64,000 nt of DNA from Burkholderiales bacterium (GTDB taxonomy: Bacteria; Pseudomonadota; Gammaproteobacteria; Burkholderiales; Burkholderiaceae_C). A model generated the notes under the pieces. It was not told where the DNA came from. It ran no database searches and saw nothing but the letters and a program-made list of their open reading frames with translations. Both the position numbers and the translations under genes were made by a program. Below are positions 24,562 to 64,000 of this stretch, in pieces. Location: assembly GCA_017307855.1 (NCBI GenBank), contig JAFKGD010000002.1, forward strand, positions 186,001 through 250,000, in the 5' to 3' direction. Within the stretch, counting starts at the first letter, position 1, and each line of letters begins with the position of its first letter.

Positions 24562-24638
24562 CGCGGAACGCGGTGCCGGCGCATTGCCGATTCCCAACGG
24601 ACGGTCGCCGCCATGTGCCGCACGCTGGCCGCATGTTC

Positions 24639-42908: not shown

Positions 42909-44536
42909 GCAGCGCCGCAGCGGTCGCAGACGTGATCGAGGCCTTCAAGCAGCGAGGCTTCGAGTTTGTCGGCAAGACGGATGACGGCTGGTTCAGGCTG
43001 CACGGGCGGTTGACACCGCCCCAAGCGGACAAGGGTTGCCCGTGCGAAGTCCAGCTCGACCCCACGTTCTTCGACTTGCCTCGCATCCGGCTGCTGGAAA
43101 TCCCTCCTGAGCTGCCCGCAGCGGTTCCTCATCTTGGCGCAGATGGCGGGCTTTGCTATCTCGCCAAGGGCACCGTCGTTCTGGACATCTACGATCCTGT
43201 CGGACAGTCGCTGGCGTGCCTGCAACGCGCGGCCGTCGTGTTCGGGCAGATCATGCAGGGGGAGATGATCGAAGACCTCGCGGAAGAGTTCTTCGCCTAT
43301 TGGCACGGCTGGCATTGTTTCGTGGACATGCAAGGCGAGGATCTAGGGCGACAGAACTGCATAGTCGCGCAGGCCAATGGGTACCCCTTGTGGTTCATCA
43401 CCGACAACGAAGATCGAACAACTGAGAAGCTGAAGTCGCTCGGCTACCAAGTCACCGATAGAACGGTGCTGACTTACCGGGTAAAGACTGGTGCTCAACC
43501 GCGCCCTCTGACTAGCAATTGGCCTCCTGAAACAGTCGGGGATATCCTGGCGTGGCAGAGCACTCTTGACCCCCGGTGCCGGCGCAAGATTCACGAGCGT
43601 ATCAAGGAGGGGGAGAGGAAGAAGGCCAACGGAGTTCTGATCGTCATCGAGTCTCCGCTGATGACCTATGGCTTTGCGGTTCTCTACGACCGCCAAAGTC
43701 CTGTCCAAAAGAGCAAGCTCGTAGATCGCAGGGATTCGAGCTATGGGTTGAAGGTGATGCCCATTTCGGTGGTCAGAATTGACGATCGGTATCTTGCCCA
43801 GCGGAACATGCCGAACTCAAAGACGCTTGCAGGGAAGAACATCGCCGTCGTTGGATGCGGCACGATTGGCGGCTATCTGTCGGATATGCTCGTCAAGGCT
43901 GGGGCGGGGACATGCGGCGGAAAACTCACGTTGGTGGATTTCGACTGCCTTCTCCCGCAAAACATCGGGCGTCATCGCCTGGGATTTCCGGACCTGTTGT
44001 CTAACAAAGCCGAGGCTATGGCGAAGGAACTCAGGCGCTTGACGCCAGGCGCCGAGATTCGTGCGCTGCCCGTGGATGTCAGGCAGGCCCAATTGGGAGA
44101 GCTGGACCTGCTCATAGATGCCACCGGGGAAGAATCCCTCGGGCATTGGCTGTGCGGCCACTATCCGCCTCCGACTCCCATGCTTTCGGTGTGGATCGAG
44201 GGGCCGGGAACGGCTGTCCGTGCGCTCCTGAGGACGAAAGCATCTAATGCGTGCTATCGATGTCTTTGGCATAGCAACAGAAGAGGCGAGCTCCGTTCTA
44301 CCATTGATCCTCTTCCTGCCATTTTGGCGGGGCATGGATGTGAGGGCTTGTACGTGCCATTCCCCGCTTCGGTGTCGGTGCACGCTGCCAGCCTGGGCGC
44401 TGAGATGACCCTTGATTGGGTCAACGGCGTCTATTCCCCCGCGTTGCGAACCAGGTTGATCGACCGCGCCCAGCAGCTTGCCACACCCGATTGCGATCCG
44501 CTGCGGGATCGGGAATGTCCCTTATGCAGTTCATGA
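42905..44536 (+). CDS. cap2: Cap2, E2-E1 fusion (CBASS ubiquitin-like transferase)
   Basis: A 543-residue protein. The N-terminal E2-like domain (residues about 1-160) has the candidate catalytic Cys84 in [10 protein letters not shown]. The C-terminal E1-like ThiF domain has a nucleotide-binding [13 protein letters not shown] near residue 317, the [13 protein letters not shown] helix, and a Cys pair NACYRCLW (Cys450/Cys453) near the adenylation-domain active cysteine. The C-terminus ends CPLCSS. Cap2 links the CD-NTase C-terminus to cellular targets, raising cGAMP synthesis. Confidence 0.92.
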
Positions 44537-45116: not shown

Positions 45117-47219
45117 TCATGCTCGAAAGATATCCACCTTGGTTTCAAGGCACTTGCGCAGACTCAGATCGTTTGCACCAACCTCGAACCATCCCCCTGG
45201 CTTCTGGTAAAAATCCAGTCCACGGCCAATCTTGATGATCCATCCGTTATCCAGTCTGATTTCGCGGTCATGGATGTTCGGGTTGAGCTTCACCTCTAGC
45301 TCGACATCTAACTCCAGCAGACTTTGCTTCAGCTCATCGAGCTTTTCGGCGATGTCGGCCAACTGGGTCTTGTCGTCGTAGCCGGTGATTAGGCTGATCT
45401 TCTTCACGGTGCCAGCCTTCAGTACCGTCTCGCAGAAGCGCACGAAGTTCTGAATCTGGTGCTGTAGCCGGATGTACGGGTCTTCGATGACGACGGACTT
45501 CGCGCCTTGCAGGTAGGGGCCGAGGATCGACTCATAGCTGTACCCGGTATCGCCATAGAGGATGGTGAAGTGCTGTTCCTTGAGCTCGACCGATGACGGA
45601 GCAACCACCGTTGGTGCCGGAGCAGGCTGTACCGGCGCCACTGGAGGTTCCACTGCTGCAGCAGGCGCCGGCTGGGCGACGGGCTGCACTTCGACTGCCT
45701 CAGCAGGCTGGCCATCCGCCTGGCTCAAACGACGACGAGCCGGTTCTTGCGTCGCGGGCGCATCCTTCGACTCCGGGCAGAAGACCACCACTTCCTCACC
45801 GCTGGCCTTGAAGTAGGACAGGTTGATGCGCGCAAACTCGTCATCCGGCTTGCGCTTGTTCATCTGCTCTTTGACACGACGGCGGCATTCCGTCGCATAG
45901 GCCACGTATTCCTCGAACTCTTCGTCGGTCGGTGGCCCATTCGGATGCAAGACCTTCAAGAAAGCGCAGACGGTTTTCTTGATGCCTTTCTCGTCACGCC
46001 CCTCAATCGACTTACCGAGCCGGATGCGCTTGCTAACTTCTTCGTAGCGGTTCGTGTGCTTGAACTGGTAGTGGAAGGCCTCGGCCAGGTAATCGGTGAT
46101 GAATCCGTAATTACTGGTCAGGAACTCGCTGCTGTTCTTGGGCATTTCCCAGCCCGGGATGTACGCGGCGAAGCGGTCCATCACGGCCAGGTCGAGCTCT
46201 GGTGGCAAGGGCTGAAACAGGTCGTGCTCGTTGGAATTGACCACCTGCTGCACAGACACATCGATGTTGCCGACAAAACTCAGGCTGGCATCGGCGATGA
46301 CTTCGGCCCCGCGCGAAAAACGTCCGTTAGCCATGAAGTCTTTCATGATCTGGATGGTGTCCGGGTCTTTGACCTTGATACCGCCAACTTCGTCAAAGGC
46401 CACCGTGTCCCAAAAGCCGACCAGGCCCACCTTGCGACGCGCGTTGTTATAGAACAGTGTGGCCTTGGTCGCCTGGCCACCCGAGATCAGCGTGGCGTAG
46501 GGCGAAAACTCGCTGAAGAAGTAGGATTTGCCGGTGCCGCGCGGGCCCAGCTCGATGTAGTTGAAGTTGGGCTCCACCAGAGCGGCCAGCCTGGCGATGA
46601 AATGCATCTGAACGCGCTTCGAGAGCTTGTTGGGCTCCAGACCCACAGAGCGCAGAACCGCCGCGATCCACTCATCTCGGGTGAAGGCTGCCCGGCCTTC
46701 TGCATAGCGGTCAAAGTCGAAACGGGTCAGTTGGATCGGGCGCAGGTCCTCGATGGAAAACGCGTAGTCGTCCTCATCGATGTCGTTGTGCGCCAGGGTG
46801 ACTTCGGCCCAAATTCCGCCTTCCAGCAGTCTGTCGTTGTCACGGTAGAACTTCTCGCCGATGGCGATGCGTTGCGAGTTGAAGTTCTCCAGCGATGCCC
46901 AGTGGCGCTTTTCCTTTTCGACGTAACGGACATGGACCTTGTCGATGAAGCGATGCTTGCCCTTGGTGGCCACCTTGGACTGAGCGGCATTGGCTTCGTC
47001 GGGGCGAACGTAGTTCTCCTGCAAGGAGGACAGCACCGCCTCCATGCCGGCATCCATCTCCGCCTGGTCGTTGCTGGCGCAATACTTGGCGAGCAGGAAC
47101 TCCAGGACGAACGTCGGGACGTTAGTGCCTTTTTTGATCCGATGCAGCAAGTCCTTGCGAAGAACTTTGCCGTCGAACGTGGCGTTTAGTTTTTGGTCGA
47201 GTTCGTCCATAGGGCTCAC
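45117..47219 (-). CDS. brxL: BrxL-type AAA+ protein with MIT_C-like C-terminal domain
   Basis: A 700-residue BREX protein. The N-terminal region (DELDQKLNATFDGKVLRKDL) and the AAA+ core (Walker A GPRGTGKS at 225-232, then TVAFDEVGGI) match BrxL. After a Pro/Ala-rich linker (about 490-550) the last about 150 residues (SYESILGPYLQGAKSVVIED, PYIRLQHQIQNFVRFCE, IHDREIRLDNGWIIKIGRG) closely resemble the phospholipase-D-like MIT_C domain of human MITD1, not the Lon-like domain of many BrxL proteins. The GTG start overlaps the pglZ stop; an ATG 9 bases in is the alternative. Confidence 0.9.
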   Translation of the reverse strand: MSPMDELDQKLNATFDGKVLRKDLLHRIKKGTNVPTFVLEFLLAKYCASNDQAEMDAGMEAVLSSLQENYVRPDEANAAQSKVATKGKHRFIDKVHVRYVEKEKRHWASLENFNSQRIAIGEKFYRDNDRLLEGGIWAEVTLAHNDIDEDDYAFSIEDLRPIQLTRFDFDRYAEGRAAFTRDEWIAAVLRSVGLEPNKLSKRVQMHFIARLAALVEPNFNYIELGPRGTGKSYFFSEFSPYATLISGGQATKATLFYNNARRKVGLVGFWDTVAFDEVGGIKVKDPDTIQIMKDFMANGRFSRGAEVIADASLSFVGNIDVSVQQVVNSNEHDLFQPLPPELDLAVMDRFAAYIPGWEMPKNSSEFLTSNYGFITDYLAEAFHYQFKHTNRYEEVSKRIRLGKSIEGRDEKGIKKTVCAFLKVLHPNGPPTDEEFEEYVAYATECRRRVKEQMNKRKPDDEFARINLSYFKASGEEVVVFCPESKDAPATQEPARRRLSQADGQPAEAVEVQPVAQPAPAAAVEPPVAPVQPAPAPTVVAPSSVELKEQHFTILYGDTGYSYESILGPYLQGAKSVVIEDPYIRLQHQIQNFVRFCETVLKAGTVKKISLITGYDDKTQLADIAEKLDELKQSLLELDVELEVKLNPNIHDREIRLDNGWIIKIGRGLDFYQKPGGWFEVGANDLSLRKCLETKVDIFRA

Positions 47220-49744
47220 TCCGTATAGTCGGTTTCAAGCGCCAGATTGCTGTAGGCCGCCAGGGTTGTCGGGTTAAGCGCCTTGACCGAGAACTTGCCT
47301 CTGAACTCATCATCCATCCGCAGCGCAATCTGTTTGCGCTGGCCTGGCATCAGGGTCACGGTCCTGGTCGCGGGGTTAACATCCCCGCCTGGGCGCGGCT
47401 CTCCCACCACATTGCCCTTGCTGTCTTGCGCTTCCAGCAAGATCTCCACGCTCATGTCTTGCGAGAACATGTCGTCGGCCACCAGTATCACTTCGATGAC
47501 CGGCAATCGCGTAGTTATTCGTTTGGCGCCGTTCTTGTAGCTCAACTCCACCACCACCTTGCGCAGTTCCGCATGGGCGGCGGTATCCAGCCGGGCGACC
47601 AACACAGGGACGACGGCCTCTGCCAGGGAGGCCCCGCCGTGGAAATACAGATGCCCCGAGCGATAGGGGGCCATGCTGCGCGGTAGCGCCACTTGAGTGA
47701 AATCGCCCCGAATGCCGACCTTCTCTGCACTGACGACCAGGCTGTGACCATCTGCCGTGCCATCGCCCAACATCATCCGATCGTGTGCTGTCACGGGCCA
47801 CGCGCCATGAGGCTTGACGCACACATCGCCAGCTTCTGCTTGCGCGTTCAGGAAGAAGCCGTGGTCGGTGACGATGACCGCCTCTTTGAAGCCCATGCCA
47901 CGCAGCTTATGCAGTGCCACGCGGATCAGCTTCAGCGTGCCAGGGATCAGCCCTAGCGTTGTCTCGGGGTTGCTTTCCAGTTGGCTGTCGATTTCCGTGG
48001 AGCGCAGCACCAGCAGGTCGACGGTTTCGGCAATCTTCGGTTTACCGCGAACAAAATCGTTGAGCGGCATTTCCGCGAAGCGATCTCCATACCGCTTGGC
48101 CAGCACATTCATGCGCTGCGGGACGTTGCTCACCGGCGCACCCGCCAGCTTGGGCACCAGTGAATCGTTCTCCAGCGACAGGGTCAGCCCCGTGCGGGCG
48201 CCAGGCAGCAAGCTCGCCATGCCCACCAGCGTGATGGTCGGCAGCTGCGCGTAGGCCGCTTGCAGCTCGACCGGCCCGTCCTCGGCCAGCAGCTTTTCCA
48301 GCGCAACGCCCAACTCATAGCGAAGGGCATCCACCATCAGGTAGGCCACCTTACGGCCGCTTTCCTTGAGCCGATCCGCCACCAGCCGATCAAATGCATC
48401 GGCGTTGGCCAGGCGCCCGGTGGGCGGCCATCCCGTAGTCTCGACGTGCTTCACAAACACGCCCTGAACCTTCTCTGCCAACCGGCGATAGCGCGCCCGT
48501 GCTTGGCTGATCACTTCATGCATCAAGCCATGTGGGTCAAGGAAGTCACCCGCCGCTTGCTCAAACTCGCGCTGCAGACGATCTGCTTCACGCAGGCTGC
48601 CCAGGTAGAAGTCGATCAGATCCGCTTGCGAGCGGGCGTGATCAGGCAGCTGGCGTTCAAAATCGTCACAGGCCTCGACCAGGCTCAAGCCAGACCGCAC
48701 CAACTCCCACTGCGCCTGGCTTTCTCCTTTACCGAGCCACACAGAACTCTTATGGCGGGTCAGCACACGGCGCGTGGCATCGGTGTCGCCGGTGACGATT
48801 CCCTTGATCGCTGTGCGCAGGAAAGTACGCTCTTCGAAGGGGAAGGTGTCGCGCTCGCCCAGGTCTTCAATCGCGCCACATAGATCGGTCAGATTGAGTT
48901 CAGCCTCGATGGCCTCGGCACGTTCGATGTATGCCGCGCGTGATTTGGGGTCACTGCGCAGACGGTCGCACACATCCTCGACAATGGGTCTGGCTTCCAT
49001 CGGTGCGTGCGGCACGCCCTTCAATGTGTCTGGCAGTGCCACCGGCAAATCGAACACGAACTCGCTGAACAGCACGTAGCGCCACAGTTCATCCGCCAAG
49101 GCAGACCACGTCTTGCCGCGCGTCTTCACGCTCAGGCCCAAGGTAGCGCGGAGGAAATCGCGCGCCTCTTGCACCCAGCCTTCCTGCCCCTTGAGTGCTT
49201 CGGATTGACTGGTAGTGGGTGCCAGCAGTGCGGCCAGAATCTCGCGCCCCGATTCCACCCGCAAAGTGGCTCGCAACTGCGGCCAGCTCACGCCGCCGCC
49301 AATGGCATCGATCACCGCGAAGGTCGGCCCAGAGGGAGAAGTCGCAAACACCTGCCGAATCTCAGTGGCGTGATCCGGCCTCGCACGTAGGCACAGGCTC
49401 AAGTATTCATCGCCATCATCTTGCGGGAACACCGCGCCGCATTCTGCGTACAGGGCGAATGGATCAGCTTGCTTCTGCTCGTCGGTTTCCGGGCGTTTGG
49501 TCGGCACATAGATCAATACACCTTCCAGCGGCGCCTTGGGCTGACCCACATCGCGCAGTGCCTGCAACGCTGCCTCACGGCTTTCGATGCTGCTTTCAGA
49601 CGCATCCACCACCCGCACCTTGTCGGCCGCCAAGTCGAAACACTGCTCGCGGTAGCGCCTGTCAGCGTCGTAGACCACCAAGGCGCCTGCCTGTTTCAGG
49701 CGCGGCCGCAGCACGCTTTCTCGAATGAATTCCGCAATCGTCAT
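47216..49744 (-). CDS. pglZ: PglZ-family BREX protein
   Basis: An 842-residue protein with the alkaline-phosphatase-like PglZ domain. VAYLMVDALRYELGVALEKL carries the metal-binding Asp and VIVTDHGFFLN the second metal site. The N-terminus (VLRPRLKQAGALVVYDADRR) is typical of BREX-1 PglZ. PglZ is essential for phage restriction in studied BREX systems and for host methylation. The true start is the ATG at 49744, which overlaps the DUF262 gene stop (ATGA); the open frame extends 27 codons further without homology. Confidence 0.94.
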   Translation of the reverse strand: MTIAEFIRESVLRPRLKQAGALVVYDADRRYREQCFDLAADKVRVVDASESSIESREAALQALRDVGQPKAPLEGVLIYVPTKRPETDEQKQADPFALYAECGAVFPQDDGDEYLSLCLRARPDHATEIRQVFATSPSGPTFAVIDAIGGGVSWPQLRATLRVESGREILAALLAPTTSQSEALKGQEGWVQEARDFLRATLGLSVKTRGKTWSALADELWRYVLFSEFVFDLPVALPDTLKGVPHAPMEARPIVEDVCDRLRSDPKSRAAYIERAEAIEAELNLTDLCGAIEDLGERDTFPFEERTFLRTAIKGIVTGDTDATRRVLTRHKSSVWLGKGESQAQWELVRSGLSLVEACDDFERQLPDHARSQADLIDFYLGSLREADRLQREFEQAAGDFLDPHGLMHEVISQARARYRRLAEKVQGVFVKHVETTGWPPTGRLANADAFDRLVADRLKESGRKVAYLMVDALRYELGVALEKLLAEDGPVELQAAYAQLPTITLVGMASLLPGARTGLTLSLENDSLVPKLAGAPVSNVPQRMNVLAKRYGDRFAEMPLNDFVRGKPKIAETVDLLVLRSTEIDSQLESNPETTLGLIPGTLKLIRVALHKLRGMGFKEAVIVTDHGFFLNAQAEAGDVCVKPHGAWPVTAHDRMMLGDGTADGHSLVVSAEKVGIRGDFTQVALPRSMAPYRSGHLYFHGGASLAEAVVPVLVARLDTAAHAELRKVVVELSYKNGAKRITTRLPVIEVILVADDMFSQDMSVEILLEAQDSKGNVVGEPRPGGDVNPATRTVTLMPGQRKQIALRMDDEFRGKFSVKALNPTTLAAYSNLALETDYTE

Positions 49745-51549
49745 TTGTCCTCCCGCAGGCTCAGGATGGACATCACCTCCTTGAGCATCTTGTCTGTTCG
49801 CGCCGTAATGGCGGCCTCGTTCCAATCATCTCGGCTGGCCAAGTCGACATTCAGGTACAAGCCGTTGCGGTAGCCAATGAAATCACCCTGGTCGTTCTTG
49901 CGATCACGCTTCTTCAAGAATTCCATCGTGCCGAGCTTGGAGTTGTAGCCACTCAGGGTCAGGTTGCCGAGCTGGTGAGCACAGCGCTCGCGAATGGCAG
50001 CCGCAGTGCCTTTCTGATCCCCTTCAAGCATGGTCACCCAGCCCGGTCCCAAGTTCTCGGTCTTCGGCAGGATGTGTTCAACAGTGAATACGGGGCGATC
50101 ATTGGCATCGTGCGCCCACAGGTCGCGCTTGTTTTCCCGGGTTTGGTGCGCCTCTTCCAGCTTGCACAGCATGAACCGCGTGGCCTCGTAATTTTCGAGG
50201 TACACGTCGCCCTTGAGGCGGGACTCGCAAACATCTTGTGGGGCTGCCCGTCCCAGCAACCAATTACTGCTCTGCTGGATGAAGCCGTCCAGCGCCGTGA
50301 TCTCGCCACTGCGAATCTGCGTCAGCAGGTGGCTGACCAGTTCCATGAACATCGGGTCGAGTTCACGGGTCGGCGGCATATCGGTGAGGTTCCGCCAAAA
50401 GAACCACTTGGTGAGCAAAGCGGCCAAGCGGCTCAATGCGTCGCCCTCATTCCACTTCTGGCTCTGCGCGACCTGGCTGGCCCACAACAAGAATGCGTAA
50501 GCCGGCGCGGCTCCTAGGCGCTGCAGGTCTTGCAAGGCCGCTGCGGCAGCGTCGCCCCATTCCGCGCGCGCCACGGCGGGGTTGAGCAGTGCCGAGTAGG
50601 TTTTGCCCTTGGCTTGCAGCGCGCCGAACAGCCAGACCGGGCGCTTGCGCAGCAGGGTGTCGTAGATGGTGATCAGGTTCGAGCGCGTGGCGCGGGTGCA
50701 GCCTTTGACCTCGACCCGCTTGAGGTACTTGAACATGTTGTACAGCTGACGCAGAAAGCGCTCCTGCACCGCCGGGTCGGGCAACAGGTCGATCAGGTCT
50801 TTCCACTCGTCAAACGCTCGGTCAATGCCGTAGTCCGGGCGCTTGTCCAACTCGGCCAGCAGGTTGTTCTTGATGATGTCGATGGCCGAGAGCGGGATGC
50901 CCCGGTTGTTGATCGACTCGAACAACATGAATGCGTCGGAATGGCTACGCACCTCGATCTTGACCAGCATGGCCGCTTTGAGCTTTTCCAGCAGGGCCAG
51001 TGCGCTGTCCTGGCTCAGCCCTTCCAGTCGCTCACAGAAGTAGCGGTAGGCGCGCGCAATGCGGCGGTTTCCGAAATTGCTCAAGCCCTTCGGCGCTTTC
51101 ACCTGCTTGGGAAACAGATCACTCAGCACCTTCTGGAAATCTGTCTTGTTCTGCGCTTGCTCGCTGGGCTCCAGACGCCACTGGCCAGAAGTGCGGACGA
51201 AGATGCGGCTTTCCAGGTTGTCCAGCTCCACCAGCAGACGGCGATCCGGATTCGGAATGGCATTCAGCTTGTCGTAGAACGCACAGAACAACAGGCTGAT
51301 GGTGGTAAACCGCTGCTGGCCGTCGATCAGCTCAAGTCGGCCACCGGCCATGCCATCTTGCTGGGTGTTCACGCAGATGATGGAGCCCAGAAAGTGCCCA
51401 CTGGGCGACTCCTCCAGGTCGTTGAACAGCGCGTCCCAGTTCTTGCCGCCCCATACATACTCGCGTTGGTACTTGGGAATGAAGAACGACGTGGTCCCAT
51501 CGGGGCTGAAGTAGAAGCTGACCGGCAGCGCTTTGACATCCTGAATCAT
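49741..51549 (-). CDS. DUF262/DUF1524 nuclease (GmrSD/BrxU-like)
   Basis: A 602-residue protein. The N-terminal DUF262 domain has IPKYQREYVWG and the DGQQR motif at 76-80, which binds or hydrolyses nucleotide in GmrS-type proteins. The C-terminal DUF1524 HNH-like part has FTVEHILPKTENLG and GNLTLSGYNSKLGT. GmrSD enzymes cut phage DNA with modified cytosines. A gene of this kind (brxU) lies between pglX and pglZ in the Escherichia fergusonii BREX locus; position and ATGA couplings here are the same. A second, complementary restriction activity is the likely role. Confidence 0.86.
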   Translation of the reverse strand: MIQDVKALPVSFYFSPDGTTSFFIPKYQREYVWGGKNWDALFNDLEESPSGHFLGSIICVNTQQDGMAGGRLELIDGQQRFTTISLLFCAFYDKLNAIPNPDRRLLVELDNLESRIFVRTSGQWRLEPSEQAQNKTDFQKVLSDLFPKQVKAPKGLSNFGNRRIARAYRYFCERLEGLSQDSALALLEKLKAAMLVKIEVRSHSDAFMLFESINNRGIPLSAIDIIKNNLLAELDKRPDYGIDRAFDEWKDLIDLLPDPAVQERFLRQLYNMFKYLKRVEVKGCTRATRSNLITIYDTLLRKRPVWLFGALQAKGKTYSALLNPAVARAEWGDAAAAALQDLQRLGAAPAYAFLLWASQVAQSQKWNEGDALSRLAALLTKWFFWRNLTDMPPTRELDPMFMELVSHLLTQIRSGEITALDGFIQQSSNWLLGRAAPQDVCESRLKGDVYLENYEATRFMLCKLEEAHQTRENKRDLWAHDANDRPVFTVEHILPKTENLGPGWVTMLEGDQKGTAAAIRERCAHQLGNLTLSGYNSKLGTMEFLKKRDRKNDQGDFIGYRNGLYLNVDLASRDDWNEAAITARTDKMLKEVMSILSLREDK

Positions 51550-55381: not shown

Positions 55382-55391
55382 CAATCGATTC

Positions 55392-58112
55392 CTATTGTTC
55401 TGTGCCTGCTTGCAGTGAACCGGGCGCTTGCCAATCCTGGCCAAAGTGAGCGCGCAGGCTCTCGATGGCGGGCGGCAAAGCGCCGTCGCAGGTCACGCCC
55501 AGGTAGGTGGCCGCACGCGTGGTGCCCACGTACAGGTATTTGTCGAAGAGCGCTGGATGTAGTGCGGCGAGTTGGTCAATGCCCACGAAGAACACCGCTT
55601 CGAACTCCAGGCCTTTGATGTGTTGGATGTCGAACACGCGCACGTTGCTTTCCTGGCCCACCGCCTGACCCTCGCGGCAGGCAATGACCTGGATGTTGTG
55701 TTCGGACAGGGCTTCGTTCAGCGCCTCAGCCACTGGCGCCACATCGTCTTCGGCATTCACAAAGATGGCGGTGGACGGCAGCTGGCCGACGAAACGCTCA
55801 ATCTCTCGGATGCGATCTGCCAGCCAACTGACAACGATTGCTGTGTCCGTTGCGTGCTCCAGGAGCGCGGGCGCTACGCCGCCACTGTCCACATGGGCGG
55901 GCAAGCTGACATTCTGCTCGGTGCCGCCGACAGCGCGGATCATGGCGCGAGCCAGCTCGTTCAGTTGCTTGCTCTGCCGGTAGGAGACGGTGATCTCCTT
56001 GATGTCGAAGTCGGCAAAGACCCACTTCATTTCATCGGCGGAGCGGGCACCCCAGGTGGTCAGGCGCTGGTTGAAATCGCCGCAAGCAAAGAACGAGCGC
56101 AGCCGTGGATGCGCCAGGGCGGCCATGCAGGCAAGCTGGATAGGCGAAAAGTCGGTCGCTTCATCCACCAAAACCTGGTTGCGGTAGTGCCCCAGGATGG
56201 GCTGGAGTGCCGACCAAGCGGGGCTGTCGATATCGCGCTGCACGTTGGGCCGGCTGATCAAGTCGCCTGCGGCGCGCAGGATGGCGAGCAGCACAATGTC
56301 CAGTTCGAGCGGATGGATATCGCGGGCTTCGAAGCCTTCGTTGCGATACCAGTTCCCGGCTTGCTGGCGATCTCGCCGGAACGCGCGGTAGCGCTTCGGA
56401 ATGCCGTCGAGATAGCGCTTGACCGGGTTCACGAAGCGGCGCGCGTTGGTCTGCACCAGCAGACTCGCACCCACCTCCGCGCGATCGGTTTCCGTCAGGC
56501 CGCGATCGGCCAGCCACTCGATGATTTTGCCGTTACGCGACGTCTTGCTGACCGCACGCTTTGAGGCTGCAGATCGGGCTTGGGCTCGCACCGCTTGCAT
56601 GTAAGCGGTGAGAGCGGCGGCACGACCGGTGCGCGGTGCTGTGGTGTCTTCTTCCTCATCAGCATCAAGCTCGTCTTGTTCGTCGGCATCGATGGTCTGG
56701 GCTTGCTGCAGGCCGTCGATGAAGCGCGCCAACTCATCAAGGAGCGCCCGATTGCGATTGAGCTGGAGGTTGAGCGCTGCTTTGATCTTGCCGTCAGAGG
56801 CATCTTTCAGGCTGGCGACGAGCGCCTGCACCTTGGGAAGCTCTGCGGCCAATGATCCGAACGTGGCGGCCAGGGCACCATCACCCGCCCGAACCAAGAT
56901 GTCTTGCAGACGTGCGCCGAGGCTCTCGACCTCGGGCGACTTGGCATCATGGAGCAGAGCCGCTGCTTCATGCAGCTCCTGCACGTAGGCGTTGCGTTGC
57001 CATGCATCGAAATCGTCGAACCATTGAATGGGACGATCGAGTGCTGCTTCGCTCAGGCTTGGCAAGCTGTCTTTCAGGACAAAGGTGCCGCCGCCCGACG
57101 CGGTTCTGAGGACGCCAAAAGCGTTCCTGGCCAACTCTCGGCGGTAGTCCTGCCAGGTTCTAATGCGCAGATCAGAAGCAGGAACACCTTCGCGTGCGAA
57201 AGCTTCTTTGAGGTACTGCTTGAGCAACTCAGTGGGCGTGAACATCAGCCAACTGTTCACGTGGGCGATACCTTGAGCTGCACTTACGGTCTCGACCAGC
57301 CGTTGTTCGCTTTCTTCCAAGAACGCGGTGTCGAGCTTTTGGCCCAGGCGGCGGATTAGGGTCGTGGTTTTGCCAGTACCCGGAGGACCCAGGATCAGCA
57401 AGCGTTTGTCGAGGGGAAGACGGAAAATCTCGTCCTGGTATTGATCGAGAACGGGCTGATCGCGCAGCCCCATCTTGGTGATGACGCTGCGGCGCACGCC
57501 ATCGACGATGTTGGCCTTGACGGTCTCTTCGGCCAGCAATTGGCCCAAGATATCTTCGGTGACTTCTGCACCAGCGACCTCGGTCAGCAACGCCCGCAGC
57601 GACTCGATGGTGAGTGGGCCGAAGTGTTCAGCCTCAACCACGGTATCGCGCGAATCCCAGCCATCAGCCATTGCGGCGGGTCTGAGTTGGGCGCGCTCCA
57701 ACACCTCAACAACGGTTCCGTTGGGCAGTGTGAATTCGGCCCCGATCGCCAAGGAGGCCAGGCGCCCGACTGGGGCGCGATAGCTGGCGAGATTGGGGAA
57801 GCCTGAGACCGGCGTGGTTCGGCAGATGTAGTAGGTGCGCTCCTCGCCTTCCTCGTCCACCACGACAACACGGGCAATCGCCGGCTCGGCTGCCAATACC
57901 TGATAGCTCTCTCGGTTTGCCTGGCTGATCTGATCCAGTTTCTGAATGGCCGAACTGGACGTCATCGTATTGATGCTCGCCAGGGCATCAGAGCCCAGCG
58001 TTCGTCCTTCGTGAAGCTTGCTCTTGGCAGCCGCAGCGATGCTGTCGAGCTGGGTGAGCGCCTCGCCAGCGACATGCTCGATGTGTTGCCTGGATTCAGT
58101 TGTCAGCTCCAT
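55392..58112 (-). CDS. UvrD-like superfamily 1 helicase within the BREX operon
   Basis: A 906-residue helicase. Walker A GPPGTGKTT is at 242-250; Walker B/DEATDF is in QVLVDEATDFSPIQLACMAA; the C-terminal motifs include VFDIQHIKGLEFEAVFFVGI and LYVGTTRAATYL. Residues about 80-145 (YRAPVGRLASLAIGAEFTLP, then NGTVVEVLE) resemble the C-terminal domain of GreA/GreB transcript-cleavage factors, as found in some UvrD/HelD-like helicases; this is tentative. It lies between brxC and pglX with gaps of 2 and 10 bases, so it is co-expressed. It is not a standard type 1 BREX gene. Confidence 0.87.
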   Translation of the reverse strand: MELTTESRQHIEHVAGEALTQLDSIAAAAKSKLHEGRTLGSDALASINTMTSSSAIQKLDQISQANRESYQVLAAEPAIARVVVVDEEGEERTYYICRTTPVSGFPNLASYRAPVGRLASLAIGAEFTLPNGTVVEVLERAQLRPAAMADGWDSRDTVVEAEHFGPLTIESLRALLTEVAGAEVTEDILGQLLAEETVKANIVDGVRRSVITKMGLRDQPVLDQYQDEIFRLPLDKRLLILGPPGTGKTTTLIRRLGQKLDTAFLEESEQRLVETVSAAQGIAHVNSWLMFTPTELLKQYLKEAFAREGVPASDLRIRTWQDYRRELARNAFGVLRTASGGGTFVLKDSLPSLSEAALDRPIQWFDDFDAWQRNAYVQELHEAAALLHDAKSPEVESLGARLQDILVRAGDGALAATFGSLAAELPKVQALVASLKDASDGKIKAALNLQLNRNRALLDELARFIDGLQQAQTIDADEQDELDADEEEDTTAPRTGRAAALTAYMQAVRAQARSAASKRAVSKTSRNGKIIEWLADRGLTETDRAEVGASLLVQTNARRFVNPVKRYLDGIPKRYRAFRRDRQQAGNWYRNEGFEARDIHPLELDIVLLAILRAAGDLISRPNVQRDIDSPAWSALQPILGHYRNQVLVDEATDFSPIQLACMAALAHPRLRSFFACGDFNQRLTTWGARSADEMKWVFADFDIKEITVSYRQSKQLNELARAMIRAVGGTEQNVSLPAHVDSGGVAPALLEHATDTAIVVSWLADRIREIERFVGQLPSTAIFVNAEDDVAPVAEALNEALSEHNIQVIACREGQAVGQESNVRVFDIQHIKGLEFEAVFFVGIDQLAALHPALFDKYLYVGTTRAATYLGVTCDGALPPAIESLRAHFGQDWQAPGSLQAGTEQ

Positions 58113-58114
58113 CG

Positions 58115-61100
58115 TCAGCTCCCGCCCGTTCCTGGCTGGTCGCCGACGACAAACGACACCTCGATCTCGGCGTAGAGACCGAGCTGCGCTTTGATCTCGT
58201 GGAGCTGCTGAATCAACGAGTCGATGTCTGCGGCAGACGTCATCTTCACAGGCACCGCGATCGACCTAGTCAGCTTGGCTGGCCCTTTCTCGCCGGTCTT
58301 GGCACGCTCTTCCTCCATGCGCTGGCGCAGCCGTTCCTGACCTTGGCGCTGGATGGAGCGCTTGAGGTCTTCTATGGTGCTGTTGATGTCGTAGTCGCGA
58401 GCCAGGAGCTTCTTGAGTCCGGCTAGGTCCTGGGTGGCTGCCAGGGCGAGCCCGTCCAGTCGGTTCACGGCGTTGCCGCGCTCTTCCTGGGTGAGTTCTT
58501 CCCATTCGGGAATACGCTGCAAGTCCTCAACCCCTTCTTTCAGGCGCAGCTTTTGCTGATCAGACAGGGTGATGACCGCATCGCGCACGCGGCCCTTCAG
58601 GTGGGTGAGCTGCGAGTTGAAGTCGGCAGTGTGTTTGTAGAAGTCCTCTTTACCCAGGCGCTCTGCTAACGTCCCCAGGTCCTCACTCAATTCGCGGCGC
58701 AGCTCACCTGGCACACCGGTGTCCGGCAATGCCTCGATGTCACGGCGATGGGCTTGAAGATCCCGCAGGGTGATATCCAGCCCATTTTCGAGCACGCGCT
58801 TCACTTCAAGCGCCCATTTGAGGTTGTCGTAAATGGCGGAGGTTTCGGCACCCAGGCGCTGAGGGGCGTCCGAAGCATCGGTGAACAGGACGTCGGCAAT
58901 GTCCTGGTTCAAAGTGCGGATGCAGTCACTGCCCGCCAGCCCGAGGCCGCTGAGTTTCTCGGCCAATGATCCATAGTCGTGCTGGAAGCGCGGGAAGTGC
59001 TTCGCCGCCGCCTTGCTGATCTCCTGCTCCAGCGGAATGACCATGTCGCCCACCAGATCGGTGAGTCGCTCTGCGGCGCGACCGAGCGTTTCGATAGACG
59101 GGCGCTCGTCGCGCAGGGCGACACCGATCTGCTTGAAGGAGTTGTTGGTCTTCAGCGCATCGATTGCCTGCTGTCCTGCGGCCGTAACTTCACGCCCGGA
59201 GACCTTGAGCTTGATTTCACCCGCCATGAGCATGGCGGCCACGATGTAGCGCGTCGTGTCTGGCGACCAGCCAAACGGATCGCTGTTGAAATCGTCGAGT
59301 AGGCGCTTGCCGTCAACCGTGCCGCGCTTGTCGATGTAGTCGCGGATGCTGATCATCGCTTTGTGGTCGCTCTTGAACGACGCGCGGCCCGCCACGGTTT
59401 GCACGAGGCCAAGCGGGTCAAGGCTGCTGCTGATAGCAGCGGGGTTAGCGACCTTCAGGAATTTCTCGGCGGTGTCGGTGCCGGCGCGTACCGGTGCTTC
59501 GACATAGCGGTCGAAAACCTGGTCGGCCACATCGGAGAGCAGCTTCTTGGCCGCTTCCAGCAAGTCGGCATCCAGCGCCGATACCGCAGTGGCTTGGCCA
59601 CGGAAGACAAACGAGCCGGCCTGCAGGGTTTGCTTGATCTTGCTCTGCAGTTGGGTCGCGAGCTTGGCGGCGCGGTCGAGCTGACCAGTGCAGTAATCCT
59701 TGACCTCTTGGTCGGGCTCGTTACGGTGCAGTTCGGCAATGCGCTGGCAGCGATAGATTTCGTTTGCCAGATCGTCGAGTTCGGAATTGGCGCGAGCCAA
59801 TAGCCCGATGACGTTCCGGCCCGCGCGGCTGCGGGAGTCATCCAGCATCCGGTTCTTGGCTGTGTCGTAGTCGCTGGCGGGTACCAACTCGACGACAGTT
59901 TGAATGGTGCTCTGATCGCCGGCCAGGCTGGTGATAGCGCTGCCGGCCTGGACCTTCAGGCCCGTTGCGACCGCCATCGTGCCGTGGAGGCTGACGCGGG
60001 GCAGCGGATCGAAGGACTCGCGCAGCGCATCGTTGAAGATGCGTTTCACGTCCACGGTGCGCAGTGCAATGGCACCGCGCTCCTGCTCGATATCCCGCAG
60101 CTTTTCGCTGAGGAAGACCAGGCTGCCGTCCTTCTCTCCGAGCGGCACATGCACGTCGCCCAGCATTTCTTCAACGGCTTTCTTTACCGTGTCGAGCTGC
60201 GATGGCGCCGTGACGGAGGGATGCATCAGGCTGACGACGTTCTGCACCGACACCGGCAGGTTGCCCAGGATCTGCAGCACTGCAACGGACTTCGCGATGT
60301 CCTGATGGAGCTGCGAATCCGGAAAGCGAATCTGGACCTTGCCAACCGCCTGGTGGATGGACGTGAAGGCACGGCGGATATCCTTCTCCAGCTCGTCGTA
60401 GAGCGTGACGGTGGTGGCAAGCCAACCCACGGGCTGATCGGCCATCGCCTTAGAGCCGCCTTCACCTTTCAGGACGTCCTGGATCACCTTGATCGCAGAG
60501 CGCAGGCCGATGCCGCCGGTGGACTTGGCCAGGGCGCCGAGCAAGTGCAGCAGGATGTCGAAGTGAGCAGGCAGGAACGGGTAGAGATTGGTGAAACTCT
60601 CTTTGCTGAAGTCCGCGTCGTAATACTTGGCGTCCTGCAGCTTGGTGTTGTGCCGTAGGGCCTGACCATGGGCATCGAACAGCTTGCCCAGCTCAGTCTC
60701 ACCAGCCGGTGATTTGCCGAGCAGGCGGCGATAGCAGATCTCTTTGATGTCGCTCGATTCGAGGTCGATCTGGATCGGGAAGCGGTCTTTCAGCTTGTAG
60801 AGCTTGTCGGAGTTCAGTGCGGCGCGCGGGTCGTCTTCAGTCAGCGTCTGCTGCGCCGTGGAGATGATCCAGGCCTTGCCGTCGCCCAGCCGCTTGAGGT
60901 TCTTGGCCAGACCGTCGAGGTTGAGGATCAGGTTGTCGCGCGAGGCCACGTACTGGCCAACTTCGTCGACGATGAAGATGATGTTCTGTTTGCCGCTCTT
61001 CTCGCGGACGATATCGATCATCTCCTGCACGCGCTGGTCTTCGAACTGGAAGAAGCCCTCGGTGCTGGACGAGAAGGACTTGGCTTCCGGGAAGAGCGCC

Positions 61101-61756
61101 GGATACATCTCGTGAGCGATCTTCGGAATCAACCCGTCGATGGCCAGGGGGTTGTTCTGCACACGCGCCCAGGTGGCACCGGGCAGCGCCTGGGCGATGT
61201 GCTCATGCAACTCGGGCGTGCGACCGTCTTTCTCGACCATGCGCTCGAAGGCGGCAACCTTGAGGTTGCGCGAGTAACCGGCCCACTGGAGTACCTTGAA
61301 ATAGAGGACGGTGGAAACGTCTTCCATCGTGGCTCCGGCGAGCATTTCGCTCGCAAGGTCCAACATGACCACGGCAGCCGGGAACCGTTGTGCGACGGTG
61401 CTGAGCAGGGCCTTGGTTTGCGGCTTGTGCAGGCGGTCCTGCAGGTACTTGATGAACGGCGTACCGTCGATGGTGCGTTGGTCGTCGAAGGCTAGGCCGA
61501 GGTACTTGGTGAACGAGCTCTTGCCGGAGCCGTAGAAGCCTGAGACCCAAACGCCGACCTCGTTCTCGCCACCGGACTCCATCGCCAGCTGCATGCGGTC
61601 GAGGAGCTTGCGAAACTGCTCCTCAATGCTCTCGGTGACCACGTACTCGGAGATCTCAGCCTTGAGGCGACCTTCTTGCGAGGCGCCATAGGTGATGACC
61701 TTCTCGATGGTCCGGTAGATGTCCTTGCTTGGGTCGAAGAGCGAGCGGATGGTCAT
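58115..61756 (-). CDS. brxC: BrxC, BREX ATPase (DUF499)
   Basis: A 1213-residue ATPase. The ATG at 61756 (MTIRSLFDPSKDIYRTIEKV) starts the homology; the open frame runs 68 codons further upstream in shadow of brxB. Walker A GFYGSGKS is at 73-80 and IIFIVDEVGQYVA is the Walker B region. Several coiled coils follow in the last third. BrxC is required for both methylation and phage exclusion in studied BREX systems. It is separated from brxB by 28 bases. Confidence 0.94.
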   Translation of the reverse strand: MTIRSLFDPSKDIYRTIEKVITYGASQEGRLKAEISEYVVTESIEEQFRKLLDRMQLAMESGGENEVGVWVSGFYGSGKSSFTKYLGLAFDDQRTIDGTPFIKYLQDRLHKPQTKALLSTVAQRFPAAVVMLDLASEMLAGATMEDVSTVLYFKVLQWAGYSRNLKVAAFERMVEKDGRTPELHEHIAQALPGATWARVQNNPLAIDGLIPKIAHEMYPALFPEAKSFSSSTEGFFQFEDQRVQEMIDIVREKSGKQNIIFIVDEVGQYVASRDNLILNLDGLAKNLKRLGDGKAWIISTAQQTLTEDDPRAALNSDKLYKLKDRFPIQIDLESSDIKEICYRRLLGKSPAGETELGKLFDAHGQALRHNTKLQDAKYYDADFSKESFTNLYPFLPAHFDILLHLLGALAKSTGGIGLRSAIKVIQDVLKGEGGSKAMADQPVGWLATTVTLYDELEKDIRRAFTSIHQAVGKVQIRFPDSQLHQDIAKSVAVLQILGNLPVSVQNVVSLMHPSVTAPSQLDTVKKAVEEMLGDVHVPLGEKDGSLVFLSEKLRDIEQERGAIALRTVDVKRIFNDALRESFDPLPRVSLHGTMAVATGLKVQAGSAITSLAGDQSTIQTVVELVPASDYDTAKNRMLDDSRSRAGRNVIGLLARANSELDDLANEIYRCQRIAELHRNEPDQEVKDYCTGQLDRAAKLATQLQSKIKQTLQAGSFVFRGQATAVSALDADLLEAAKKLLSDVADQVFDRYVEAPVRAGTDTAEKFLKVANPAAISSSLDPLGLVQTVAGRASFKSDHKAMISIRDYIDKRGTVDGKRLLDDFNSDPFGWSPDTTRYIVAAMLMAGEIKLKVSGREVTAAGQQAIDALKTNNSFKQIGVALRDERPSIETLGRAAERLTDLVGDMVIPLEQEISKAAAKHFPRFQHDYGSLAEKLSGLGLAGSDCIRTLNQDIADVLFTDASDAPQRLGAETSAIYDNLKWALEVKRVLENGLDITLRDLQAHRRDIEALPDTGVPGELRRELSEDLGTLAERLGKEDFYKHTADFNSQLTHLKGRVRDAVITLSDQQKLRLKEGVEDLQRIPEWEELTQEERGNAVNRLDGLALAATQDLAGLKKLLARDYDINSTIEDLKRSIQRQGQERLRQRMEEERAKTGEKGPAKLTRSIAVPVKMTSAADIDSLIQQLHEIKAQLGLYAEIEVSFVVGDQPGTGGS

Positions 61757-61784
61757 AGATTTGTCCCAGGGTTCTTTTGTCTGA

Positions 61785-62360
61785 TCAGCCGCCGACGTGG
61801 ACGGAGCGGTAGTTGCCGTCTTCCGGGTAGAAGCCGAGAAACTTGAGGCGCGTCTTGCCGGTTCGCACGCCGGGGTACAGAAAAATCGTCGGCACGTGAA
61901 ATTTGCCTTGGAGTTGGCTCTCGATGGCGCCGATGCGCAGAAACGGATGCAGCGCCTCAAGGTCCGTCACCAAAAGCAACGCGTTCTGCTGGCCTTCGAG
62001 CGGCTGAAGGGCCTCCTCCAACCGCTTCAGCAGGCCGTTATCCGCCGTCAGGATGTCTGCCAGAGCCTTGTTCGTACGCGGCCAATCCAGTGGAGCAGAC
62101 TTGTCCTCCATCACGCAGAGCGACCAGAATGGGTCGTCTTTGAGCAAGGTCCAGATCTGTTCGGCAATGGAGAACGTGTGCACGTCCCAGCCTTCCTGGT
62201 GGAGCTTGGCCACCCAGGCAGGCGTTTGCCGCTTGACCTCGAGGATCTGCTCTGGAGGAAAGACGAGGTAGTAAATCGGCTCGAAGCTCGCATGACCGAG
62301 CTCACGCCCGTGCCGGATGCGCTCGCGCAATTCGTCGAAATCAGCTTTGAGTGAGGACAT
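61785..62360 (-). CDS. brxB: BrxB (DUF1788)
   Basis: A 191-residue DUF1788 protein (FEPIYYLVFPPEQILEVKRQ, VTDLEALHPFLRIGAIESQL, FLYPGVRTGKTRLKFLGFYP). The family is present in BREX types 1, 5 and 6 and is needed for activity, with unknown biochemistry. It overlaps the brxA end by 20 bases. Confidence 0.93.
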   Translation of the reverse strand: MSSLKADFDELRERIRHGRELGHASFEPIYYLVFPPEQILEVKRQTPAWVAKLHQEGWDVHTFSIAEQIWTLLKDDPFWSLCVMEDKSAPLDWPRTNKALADILTADNGLLKRLEEALQPLEGQQNALLLVTDLEALHPFLRIGAIESQLQGKFHVPTIFLYPGVRTGKTRLKFLGFYPEDGNYRSVHVGG

Positions 62361-63135
62361 CGCAGAGCGCCTCCATGTCTTGTTGTTTCCAACTGATTCG
62401 AATCACATCACCCGCCGCCTGGACGATGAGTAATCCTTTCAGCGAAAGCCGCTTGATCTCTTCCAGCACGTCTTCACGCGCCAGGCCAAACAGATGCCAG
62501 TCTTCGTGCGTCAGCAGAGCGTTGTCACCGACGCCGGAAGAGTGCAGCTCGTAGGCAAGGTAAGCGGCCACTGATGGTGAGATGCGGAACGGCAGAATGC
62601 GACGGCTCGAACGCAATCCTCGTTCAAGCATTCCGTAGTCGGCACAACATCCGGTCAGATAGGCGGAGACACGCCGAACCGTAGTTTCGGACCAGTGCTT
62701 GACCGTCTTGCCATCGTCAATGCCCCGCTCGACAAAGGTGCGAGCGTCGTCATTGGTGACATGCGTGTAACCACCGGCATACCGCGTCCAGTACACGTGT
62801 CGCACGAAGTCGCCGAGAATCGGGTTCGCTCGGCTCGTAAACACGAGCATGAGCTGCGTCAGGTCAGCGGTTGAAATCGTTGCGGACAGTCGCTTGAGGT
62901 GTGCGGCTGGTGCGCCACCGGCCACCAAGTAGCGCGGAGCAAAGCATTCGACGACGATGTTGCGAAGCCGGCGTGCGGTGACGGTGGGGAATCGCCCCGA
63001 TTCCAGCGCGGCCTGATGTAACTGGTTCGCCGACATGCCGGGCGACCACAGGTCGAGCAGCGTCTTGGTCTCATTGACGAGTCCAAGGCCTGCTTGTAAC
63101 TGTGTCGTATAGGGCTTGTTGTCGGCCACGATCAA
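62341..63135 (-). CDS. brxA: BrxA (DUF1819)
   Basis: A 264-residue DUF1819 protein, related to the small helical nucleic-acid-binding BrxA. It is somewhat longer than the usual about 200. Recognisable parts are TKTLLDLWSPGMSANQLHQA, ANPILGDFVRHVYWTRYAGG and YLAYELHSSGVGDNALLTHE. The C-terminal region (LAREDVLEEIKRLSLKGLLI) is winged-helix-like. Its start overlaps the brxE stop as ATGA. Confidence 0.9.
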   Translation of the reverse strand: MIVADNKPYTTQLQAGLGLVNETKTLLDLWSPGMSANQLHQAALESGRFPTVTARRLRNIVVECFAPRYLVAGGAPAAHLKRLSATISTADLTQLMLVFTSRANPILGDFVRHVYWTRYAGGYTHVTNDDARTFVERGIDDGKTVKHWSETTVRRVSAYLTGCCADYGMLERGLRSSRRILPFRISPSVAAYLAYELHSSGVGDNALLTHEDWHLFGLAREDVLEEIKRLSLKGLLIVQAAGDVIRISWKQQDMEALCDVLTQS

Positions 63136-63632
63136 CCCACCAGATACGGATACGTTTTGGCGTTCTGCTTGAACGCCGACAGGTAGGCTGCCGCAATGGC
63201 CTTCAGGGTGTCAGTGGAATCGATATCCTTGATGCTGCCGACTGCTGTAGGTCCCACACCAGGCGTGCCGCTCGTCGCGGCCAAGCGCTTCAACGCATCC
63301 ATTGCAGCCTCTTTGCTTTGTGCAACCTGGCTGGCGAGTTCCTCGCCCCCACCGCCTTGCACCATCGCGTGCAGGTCTTGTTCGATCTCTTCCGGCAAAC
63401 GGAATAGGTGGTAGCTGCCGACGCTCAAATGCTCATCGTGCAATCGTCTAGCTGCCTCCAGCACACCGTGGTACTGAGCGAGCCGGGAAGTTTTGGAGAA
63501 GACAGGCTCCAGGAAGAGCCTGCTTGACGCTTCATAAAACGCCGTTGGCCACCAAGCGCATTGAGCACGCTCACCAAGGAAGCCGACGATCAACCTCATT
63601 TGCAGCAATGTCGATAGGTAGGATTCCTTCAT
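63132..63632 (-). CDS. brxE: BrxE-family protein
   Basis: A 166-residue protein (MRLIVGFLGERAQCAWWPTA, FYEASSRLFLEPVFSKTSRL, GSYHLFRLPEEIEQDLHAMV). These segments match the BrxE family, which in the original BREX classification marks type 6 loci and has no known activity. The ATG at 63632 (MKESYLSTLLQMR) has GAGATGAG just upstream and is preferred over an upstream codon. It is the first structural gene of the operon, 62 bases after the WYL regulator stop. Confidence 0.83.
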   Translation of the reverse strand: MKESYLSTLLQMRLIVGFLGERAQCAWWPTAFYEASSRLFLEPVFSKTSRLAQYHGVLEAARRLHDEHLSVGSYHLFRLPEEIEQDLHAMVQGGGGEELASQVAQSKEAAMDALKRLAATSGTPGVGPTAVGSIKDIDSTDTLKAIAAAYLSAFKQNAKTYPYLVG

Positions 63633-63694
63633 CTCATCTCTCTTTGTTCGTTGGTTCTGCCGGCGCGATCGACGCAAGCAGAGGTATCCGTTGT

Positions 63695-64000
63695 TCAGTC
63701 AAATTCCGCCCCTGCGCCAGCGGTATCGGGTGCCGAATACCCTGGAGCCAACACGGCATTGCGCACCCCATAGATGGCGAGATGATCCTTCAACCAGAGC
63801 CGGTACTCATGGCCGCGCAGGCTGTGGTCGGGGGAGCAGTCCACACTCCACTTGCGCAGGATGTATCCGGCCGTGGCGGCACGCAGCTTCATCCGCAGCA
63901 CGCCGTCGCGCATGCTGTAGTCCATTTCCGTGATCTCCGGCCGGGGTTGATCCGGATGCGGAACCAACTCCAGCTCGACGATTCGGGTCCACTGAATGTC
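63695..64000 (-). CDS. WYL-domain regulator, C-terminal end (BrxR/CapW-like; 5' part outside window)
   Basis: The frame is open to the right edge. The visible 101 residues (TRIVELELVPHPDQPRPEIT, EMDYSMRDGVLRMKLRAATA, GYILRKWSVDCSPDH) match the C-terminal domain of WYL-type dimeric repressors of the BrxR/CapW group, which bind upstream of and control BREX and CBASS operons. It is co-oriented with and directly precedes brxE. The N-terminal winged helix must be beyond the window. Confidence 0.75.
   Translation of the reverse strand, partial: DIQWTRIVELELVPHPDQPRPEITEMDYSMRDGVLRMKLRAATAGYILRKWSVDCSPDHSLRGHEYRLWLKDHLAIYGVRNAVLAPGYSAPDTAGAGAEFD

Follow-up and report, generated by a model that had tools for sequence, protein, structure and literature searches.

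What kind of bacteriophage exclusion (BREX) system does a Burkholderiales bacterium carry when brxE and brxL stand in one operon, and is a methyltransferase gene that falls into two open reading frames (ORFs) broken, or built that way? Both questions are raised by positions 45,117 to 64,000 of a 64,000-nucleotide stretch of contig JAFKGD010000002.1 (positions 186,001 to 250,000; hereafter the window), where the operon lies on the minus strand. Read from right to left, it comprises a BrxR-like WYL regulator gene, brxE, brxA, brxB, brxC, an SF1 helicase gene, two genes for the N- and C-terminal halves of PglX (pglXN and pglXC), a GmrSD-type gene, pglZ and brxL. A first-pass annotation made from the sequence alone had given this order, and ORFs and profile matches place every gene it named where it had put it, with the tight coupling it described: neighbours overlap by 1-20 nucleotides (nt) or lie 2-28 nt apart, the gap between the WYL gene and brxE being 62 nt. 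Judging from sequence comparison, PglX is probably a two-polypeptide, M/S-like enzyme with an exchangeable specificity cassette, set in a brxE-brxA-brxB-brxC-pglX-pglZ-brxL lineage whose guest genes are interchangeable.

A stable brxE and brxL composition outside the six types

Relatives were collected by scanning a five-sequence BrxC alignment against genome contigs, keeping the best 80 of 230 and adding two plasmid loci (L016, L017) and five on viral contigs (L005, L008, L098, L100, L101), which makes 87 loci in addition to the window. Left out were L102 and L103, on the contigs of L008 and L005, and L099, a near-copy of L043; L104-L117 were left uncounted as distant or, for L106, as a contig-end fragment. 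brxE is present in every locus that shows 2.3 kb or more upstream of brxC (77 of 77), and brxL in every locus where a full pglZ is followed by 900 nt or more (53 of 53); brxE with brxL is therefore a stable composition. The titled hosts span Proteobacteria, Chloroflexi, Planctomycetes, Firmicutes, Cyanobacteria and Bacteroidota, and among four haloarchaeal plasmids that gave a BrxE-family hit, the two examined carry the set BrxE-A-B-C-PglX-PglZ-BrxL as well. Among 398 sampled Pseudomonadota genomes BrxE was found only in the window's own, making the lineage rare in that draw. Two contigs titled Alcanivorax sp. S71-1-4 carry two operons of the lineage, one with fused pglX (L018) and one with split pglX (L029). 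A Halobaculum plasmid (L156) has two annotated pglX genes, at 12199-15873 before brxE and at 21806-25504 after brxC.

The first-pass annotation had taken brxE as a mark of type 6 and the locus as a mixture of type 1 and type 6 markers. The available part of PMC12839542 likewise states that BrxE is exclusive to type 6. The distribution above contradicts this use of brxE, and it leaves no room for a one-off hybrid.

Typing rests on NCBIfam and PADLOC models. The identification of brxE itself is sound by profile search, with NF033447 (BrxE_fam) scoring 178 bits against a cut-off of 40, although the BREX-6 BrxE model is not reached (37.9 bits, cut-off 80) and the match is weak in PADLOC (E 0.00019). 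PglZ is closest to the type 6 model, at 172 bits against a cut-off of 400, and reaches no typed cut-off, the type A model giving 89 of 270 bits and the type B model 59 of 400; each of 22 PglZ proteins scanned from the lineage is matched by the type 6 model, and it is this model that gives the best single E-value. For PglX the best-scoring typed model is that of type 1 (BREX-1), while the BREX-6 model, with a cut-off of 900, gives 268 and 167 bits for the two halves. As the first-pass annotation had noted, neither brxD nor brxHI is seen: the PADLOC matches listed at E<=0.01 for the ten operon proteins contain neither, brxD having been searched for within the operon only, and nothing in the whole genome is matched at 1e-10 by the BrxHI/HII model PDLC02500, which does find matches in 12 of 14 control genomes.

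The type 6 gene order is brxE-A-B-C-pglX-pglZ. The present system shares with type 6 a brxE family gene and a PglZ nearest the type 6 model, but has brxL instead of brxD or brxHI, and its BrxE, PglZ and PglX all fall under the BREX-6 cut-offs. With type 1 it shares brxA, brxB, brxC, pglX, pglZ and brxL in one locus, together with a BrxR-like WYL regulator and a GmrSD/BrxU-like gene as in described systems, and differs in having brxE, in a PglZ under the type A and B cut-offs, and in a PglX made of two proteins. The recognition domain here lies in the second ORF, whereas the accessible text of PMC12707154 describes it as an integral part of the BREX methyltransferase protein. The locus thus belongs to a real, coherent BREX lineage outside the six-type definitions; it is unclassified, as had been proposed, in that it fits neither type 1 nor type 6, but it is not an odd mixture, its composition being fixed in the lineage.

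PglX encoded by two genes

The N-terminal half of pglX (53492..55381, minus strand; ATG at 55381) encodes an M-like protein with the N-terminal domain and the methyltransferase domain, including an NPPF motif, and matches positions 1-658 of the 1332 of PDLC02527. The C-terminal half (51546..53492, minus strand) encodes an S-like protein with the target-recognition domain, spacer and C-terminal domain, and matches PDLC02532 with 882 bits and PDLC02527 at 666-1311. The two genes meet at 53490..53494 on the minus strand in a 1-nt stop/ATG overlap. The first-pass annotation was right that pglX is split into two ORFs, but the split is a recurrent architecture and not a one-off broken gene.

Both halves are in view at 76 loci, window included, with pglX split in 37 and fused in 39. 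In an alignment of 74 rows (L068 and L024 left out), the break falls at the window's column in 34 of 35 other split rows, the exception being the partly recovered L027. At the 36 split junctions besides the window's, 23 show a 4-nt overlap (ATGA) and 5 a 1-nt overlap, 28 in all; the remainder have genes between the halves (L016, L026, L028, L082), an insertion sequence (IS)-like ORF (L019) or an unclear arrangement (L027, L054, L060). No in-frame slippery heptamer occurs in these 36 junctions, repeat tracts being outside the test.

The protein of pglXN aligns to BrxX of PDB entry 9ewz up to residue 607 and pglXC from residue 618. In E. coli BrxX, according to the available text of PMC11842806, the methyltransferase domain spans residues 211-650 and a hinge, at 638-675, lies between two jaws, followed by the recognition and C-terminal domains. 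The junction, mapping to BrxX 607-618, is thus placed at the end of the methyltransferase domain, about 20-30 residues before the hinge.

Omega values, calculated by Nei-Gojobori with some synonymous divergences (dS) high, are low for each half: between the window and L055 (Dyella ginsengisoli LA-4) they are 0.066 for pglXN and 0.082 for pglXC, and in five other split-split pairs they range from 0.034 to 0.132 and from 0.125 to 0.295, respectively. Both halves are therefore under purifying selection.

These observations bear on a rival account, in which the two ORFs are a decayed or phase-off gene, with PglX cut by a frameshift or nonsense change and the system inactive or awaiting reversion or gene transfer. 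Phase variation is called common in pglX in the available part of PMC11341690, which speaks for this account. It is nonetheless improbable in view of the shared junction column, the start/stop overlaps in 28 of 36 junctions, which recur in alpha-, beta- and gammaproteobacterial records, the lack of an in-frame slippery heptamer, the low omega of both halves, and the other genes that sit between the halves in L016, L028 and L082. On the shared column, low omega, clean overlaps and missing heptamer, neither a broken gene nor a programmed frameshift is favoured, and the split is probably not damage.

The catalytic and recognition parts of PglX thus stand on separate, constrained genes, as in an M/S-type two-subunit methyltransferase; a separate S subunit is also found in the type IIB system BcgI. 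Compared with HsdM and HsdS of type I restriction-modification, the present case differs in having no HsdR, a single recognition domain and a BREX-specific C-terminal domain. No description of a conserved two-gene PglX was found in the literature, searched through listings and excerpts; the nearest report, as far as the available text of PMC9716671 goes, is of two truncated pglX genes treated as an interruption.

Split pglX also occurs outside the lineage. The BREX-1 PglX model is over its cut-off in 11 of the 398 Pseudomonadota genomes, with seven copies whole and those of genomes G226 and G219 cut by contig ends. In the other two, G359 and G182, the N- and C-terminal halves lie about 3 kb apart with the break at model positions 637-647; the space between them holds a reverse-transcriptase-domain gene in G359, while in G182 it holds Schlafen-AlbA and ABC-type ATPase genes and one with a weak likeness to DUF4435. 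Their N-terminal halves end 26-36 model positions later than the window's (611), suggesting a split of independent origin. In a second draw, of 369 genomes and partly overlapping the first, four whole PglX were found in three genomes, plus one unclear case (G501) with stops between the pieces. In L143, a BREX locus outside the lineage, the protein encoded between the two pglX halves has a reverse-transcriptase domain and 1009 amino acids (6252-9278).

Exchange of the specificity segment

The junction lies inside a hypervariable specificity segment at approximately 52300..53800 (minus strand), from about pglXN residue 525 to about pglXC residue 370-440, delimited by nucleotide profiles and by the sliding identity to 16 loci whose BrxC matches the window's at 94% identity or more (L055 left out). 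In this set, median identity is 88-100% per 50-residue step over pglXN 1-500, falls at pglXN 526-575 to 64% in the nine split loci and 44% in the seven fused ones, lies at 12-52% over pglXC 1-350, and returns to 80-98% beyond residue 450; brxC stays at 90-100% and pglZ at 92-98% at the steps sampled.

L008 and L036 are 99-100% identical in nucleotides from brxE through most of the helicase gene and again in the guest slot, with only 51-62% over the first half of pglXC; L008 and L063 compare similarly, the guest slot being replaced too. For L008 and L036, dS is 0.006 in brxC, 0.016 in the helicase gene, 0.57 in pglXN and 0.87 in pglXC. The reverse also occurs, with C-terminal halves 80% identical in L033 and L058, where BrxC is 68% identical, and 82% in L086 and L008, where BrxC is 58% identical.

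Fast point-mutational evolution could in principle produce a divergent recognition segment in place of replacement; recognition domains evolve quickly in many systems, and pglXC omega exceeds brxC omega in most pairs tested. This explanation is very unlikely, given that synonymous divergence jumps as well, that identity recovers to 98-100% directly downstream in L008 and L036, and that some C-terminal halves are 71-82% identical on backbones only 58-68% identical in BrxC.

On quick trees, the minimum number of changes between the split and fused states is 19 for BrxC, 10 for pglXN and 7 for pglXC. The junction lying inside the segment, the split or fused state tends to travel with it.

Several observations weigh against reading PglX as an M/S-like pair with an exchangeable cassette. 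Fused PglX is as common as split, the calls at L027, L054 and L060 are unclear, and the L019 junction contains the IS-like ORF. Among titled hosts the 28 clean overlaps all belong to Pseudomonadota, and of the only split rows titled outside that phylum, L054 and L060 are unclear and L082 has a gene separating its halves; the sample of loci was selected, not random. The exchanged unit is also not the pglXC gene alone, as it starts inside pglXN and ends before the tail of pglXC. Where two loci share BrxC at 94% identity or more, the median for their pglXC is 43% in fused pairs (22) against 64% in split ones (57); with fused segments exchanged as much or more, swapping does not depend on the split, and nothing indicates that the split makes it faster.

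Guest genes beside pglX

The first-pass annotation had called the helicase and GmrSD genes insertions, and their distribution in relatives bears them out as optional guests. Guests were counted as ORFs of at least 150 amino acids on either strand between neighbouring core genes from brxE to brxL, outer flanks uncounted. Junctions away from pglX hold none (brxE/brxA 0/81, brxA/brxB 0/84, brxB/brxC 0/85, pglZ/brxL 0/57), whereas those beside or inside pglX do (brxC/pglXN 16/81, pglXN/pglXC 3/75, pglXC/pglZ 33/69). Smaller ORFs were seen in brxB/brxC of L052 and pglZ/brxL of L087.

In the window, the pglX/pglZ slot holds a GmrSD-type (BrxU-like) type IV restriction gene (49741..51549, minus strand), the gene first listed as DUF262, with GmrSD_N (PF03235) at 131 bits against a cut-off of 33.2 and GmrSD_C (PF07510) at 64 bits against 23. 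Relatives at least 60% identical occur in 8 of 69 loci. Like BrxU guests of other BREX systems it is a GmrSD_N plus GmrSD_C protein inside the operon; it differs in standing between pglX and pglZ, the plasmid system described in the accessible part of PMC12707154 having the transcript ABCUX.

The guests form 44 clusters, of which chosen representatives were scanned against Pfam or PADLOC. They include GmrSD, a GmrSD_N-only family, PADLOC HEC-01, HEC-07 and PDC-M16A/B, Fic, and PDC-M45B accompanied by a dual-OB protein. Between the pglX halves themselves lie an OLD-TOPRIM gene in L028, a UvrD-like and DUF2290 pair in L016, a PIN gene of 134 amino acids in L082, a 136-amino-acid ORF resembling a PIN/VapC toxin by eye in L026 (a locus counted through a minus-strand ORF only) and, again by eye, a transposase-like ORF in L019.

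The SF1 helicase as a mobile guest

The gene between brxC and pglXN (55392..58112, minus strand; PF13538, UvrD_C_2) encodes an SF1 (UvrD/HelD-like) motor protein, and the annotation that a different helicase sits mid-operon is correct. Its further proposal made the UvrD-like helicase a core component acting in place of BrxHI in an unclassified BREX variant. The gene lies inside the operon, 2 nt after brxC, occupies the same slot in all 12 relatives carrying it, and is common to part of the lineage, with five changes on the BrxC tree. Those 12 are, on the other hand, drawn from 81 relatives with brxC and pglXN both in view, leaving 69 without the gene; a 13th copy lies at a contig end in L073. 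Only one of 60 genomes in the draw of relatives, the window's own, has the helicase.

In Aeromonas media, E. coli and Raoultella planticola, copies 82-87% identical belong to unrelated restriction operons of an SNF2/type III-like kind, which read SNF2-DUF4391-helicase-methyltransferase and end, with small differences, in a DEAD or type III endonuclease gene. An E. coli megablast search matched the helicase region alone, in 8 of 5426 genomes, and copies on Rhizobium, Vibrio and Sphingomonas plasmids have no BREX genes within the annotated flanks. The SNF2-DUF4391-SF1 helicase-methyltransferase operon recurs in L010, L011 and L012, and the SNF2 protein of L011 has HKD+Snf2 as its best PADLOC match.

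The protein matches SF1 UvrD/HelD-type models, and its 19 PADLOC matches include neither BrxHI nor BrxHII. According to the available text of PMC12839542, BrxHI and BrxHII are SF2 helicases described for systems without BrxL, which is present here. A core role is accordingly very improbable, and replacement of BrxHI is rejected on distribution, family and the presence of BrxL; the helicase is a mobile guest and not a core part of BREX.

In an alignment of 12 sequences, two of them partial, Walker A, DEA, YRQS, KGLEFE and TTRA stretches are conserved. One possibility, which we regard as unlikely, is that the protein is a HelD-like, RNA-polymerase-binding motor which enters defence operons as an independent effector or in a helping role and might, for instance, stall transcription on phage DNA or clear it away. 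The closest curated families are HelR (48.8 bits, cut-off 1100, and 34.1 bits, cut-off 750) and HelD (36.6 of 419), ahead of UvrD at 33.1, but none is over its cut-off, UvrD trails them only narrowly and the first match in PADLOC is GajB. The best PDB match is 6wvk (2.4e-5), listed as "DNA helicase IV / DNA helicase", a HelD-RNA polymerase entry.

A GreA/GreB-like stretch at residues 80-132 (PF01272, E 0.024) points the same way. Its score ranks fourth in the genome, after three over-cut-off genes resembling GreA, GreB and Rnk, its profile-profile probability is 67%, and with a three-sequence Gre profile the homologs from L018 and L008 outscored all 500 shuffles of the window protein. The window protein itself, however, is not separated from those shuffles, every Gre-like score lies under curated cut-offs, a Pfam scan of three homologs gave no Gre match, a PDB profile search with the N-terminal alignment returned no Gre factor, and the AlphaFold2 (AF2) model (pLDDT 44) is unusable. 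A Gre-like N-terminal stretch is thus suggestive only.

With the HelD/HelR recycling motors of RNA polymerase the protein shares its nearest curated families and possibly this stretch; it differs in that all matches fall under curated cut-offs and in being found in several kinds of defence operon. Beside the split pglX of L143 stands a UvrD-like protein of 957 amino acids (1598-4468) with a similar SPVGRL stretch near its N-terminus, which matches the window helicase weakly (25% over 259 residues).

Other operon components and the defence neighbourhood

All remaining operon genes are on the minus strand. The BrxR-like WYL transcriptional regulator (WYL, PF13280) is present with its 3' part at 63695..64000, the whole gene (63695-64609) extending past the window. 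Its best PDB match is 7qfz (8.4e-84), named only "WYL domain-containing protein"; it also matches a chain named BrxR (7t8k, 1e-22), and the gene lies upstream of BREX. brxE occupies 63132..63632 (ATG at 63632); the AF2 model of BrxE (pLDDT 89.8) is confident and mostly helical, and no solved PDB structure resembles it convincingly.

brxA (62341..63135) matches PF08849 at 95 bits and PDLC02445 at 450 bits, brxB (61785..62360) PF08747 at 39.6 bits and PDLC02465 at 382 bits, and brxC (58115..61756; ATG at 61756) NF033441 at 852 bits against a cut-off of 400. pglZ (47216..49744; ATG at 49744; PF08665) has BREX_PglZ_6 as its best typed model. brxL (45117..47219; PF20442, PF13337; TIGR02688 473 bits, cut-off 329) carries a C-terminal HKD/PLD-like domain, PF16565. 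BrxL-HKD fusions are counted in 1030 of 2913 type 1 taxa with BrxL in the available part of PMC12839542.

Other defence genes adjoin the operon. CBASS genes for a DncV-like cyclase and an E1-E2 protein (window 41766-44536, plus strand) converge on brxL, with one unmatched ORF of 160 amino acids in between. On the other side, divergent from the BrxR-like gene, is a complete Wadjet JetABCD operon (L003 7706-14441, plus strand; window about 64706-71441). Its JetC is 96-100% identical on L019, L020 and L055 as well, so Wadjet, WYL and BREX may travel as a larger block. ORFs beyond Wadjet (L003 15168-18183) resemble, by eye, integrative conjugative element genes, which suggests that the island sits in such an element.

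Proposed mechanism and significance

The arrangement suggests how the system may work. PglX would be made as two translationally coupled proteins, an M-like one with the N-terminal domain and an N6-adenine methyltransferase, and an S-like one with the target-recognition domain, spacer and C-terminal domain, most likely assembling into the clamp or jaws that single-chain BrxX forms through its flexible hinge. Assembled PglX would mark host sites and, with BrxB, BrxC and PglZ, sense unmarked ones, while BrxL, with its HKD/PLD-like tail, and PglZ would restrict phage. The specificity segment begins where the methyltransferase domain ends and takes in both the junction and the recognition domain; the simplest means of its replacement would be homologous recombination in the flanks, which are conserved. 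With the segment replaced and the rest of the operon unchanged, the recognised site could change. The genes flanking or inside pglX, including the SF1 helicase and GmrSD, would be interchangeable second-line guests.

A broader proposal, which we hold only tentatively and at somewhat less than even confidence, is that two-subunit M+S PglX arose in the BrxE and BrxL lineage and independently in some classical type 1 systems, split at the boundary between methyltransferase and recognition domains. Exchange of the specificity cassette between operons that are otherwise almost the same would change the protected site. Second-line defences (OLD-TOPRIM, reverse transcriptase, Schlafen/ABC modules, GmrSD, HelD-like motors) would dock at the junction and in the pglX flanks, where they would be loaded and swapped close to the specificity module.

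As far as the available texts of PMC12707154 and PMC11341690 go, the BREX methyltransferases studied so far bind their sites, and methylation in vitro could not be shown. A naturally split PglX bears on this open problem, as the parts of BREX that read and that mark DNA could then each be expressed and purified alone and recombined at will. L008, L036 and L063, near-identical from brxE into the helicase gene and different in pglX, offer natural tests of the encoding of specificity and of its rate of turnover. The distribution of guests, next to pglX and not at other core junctions, gives a rule for finding cargo defence genes.

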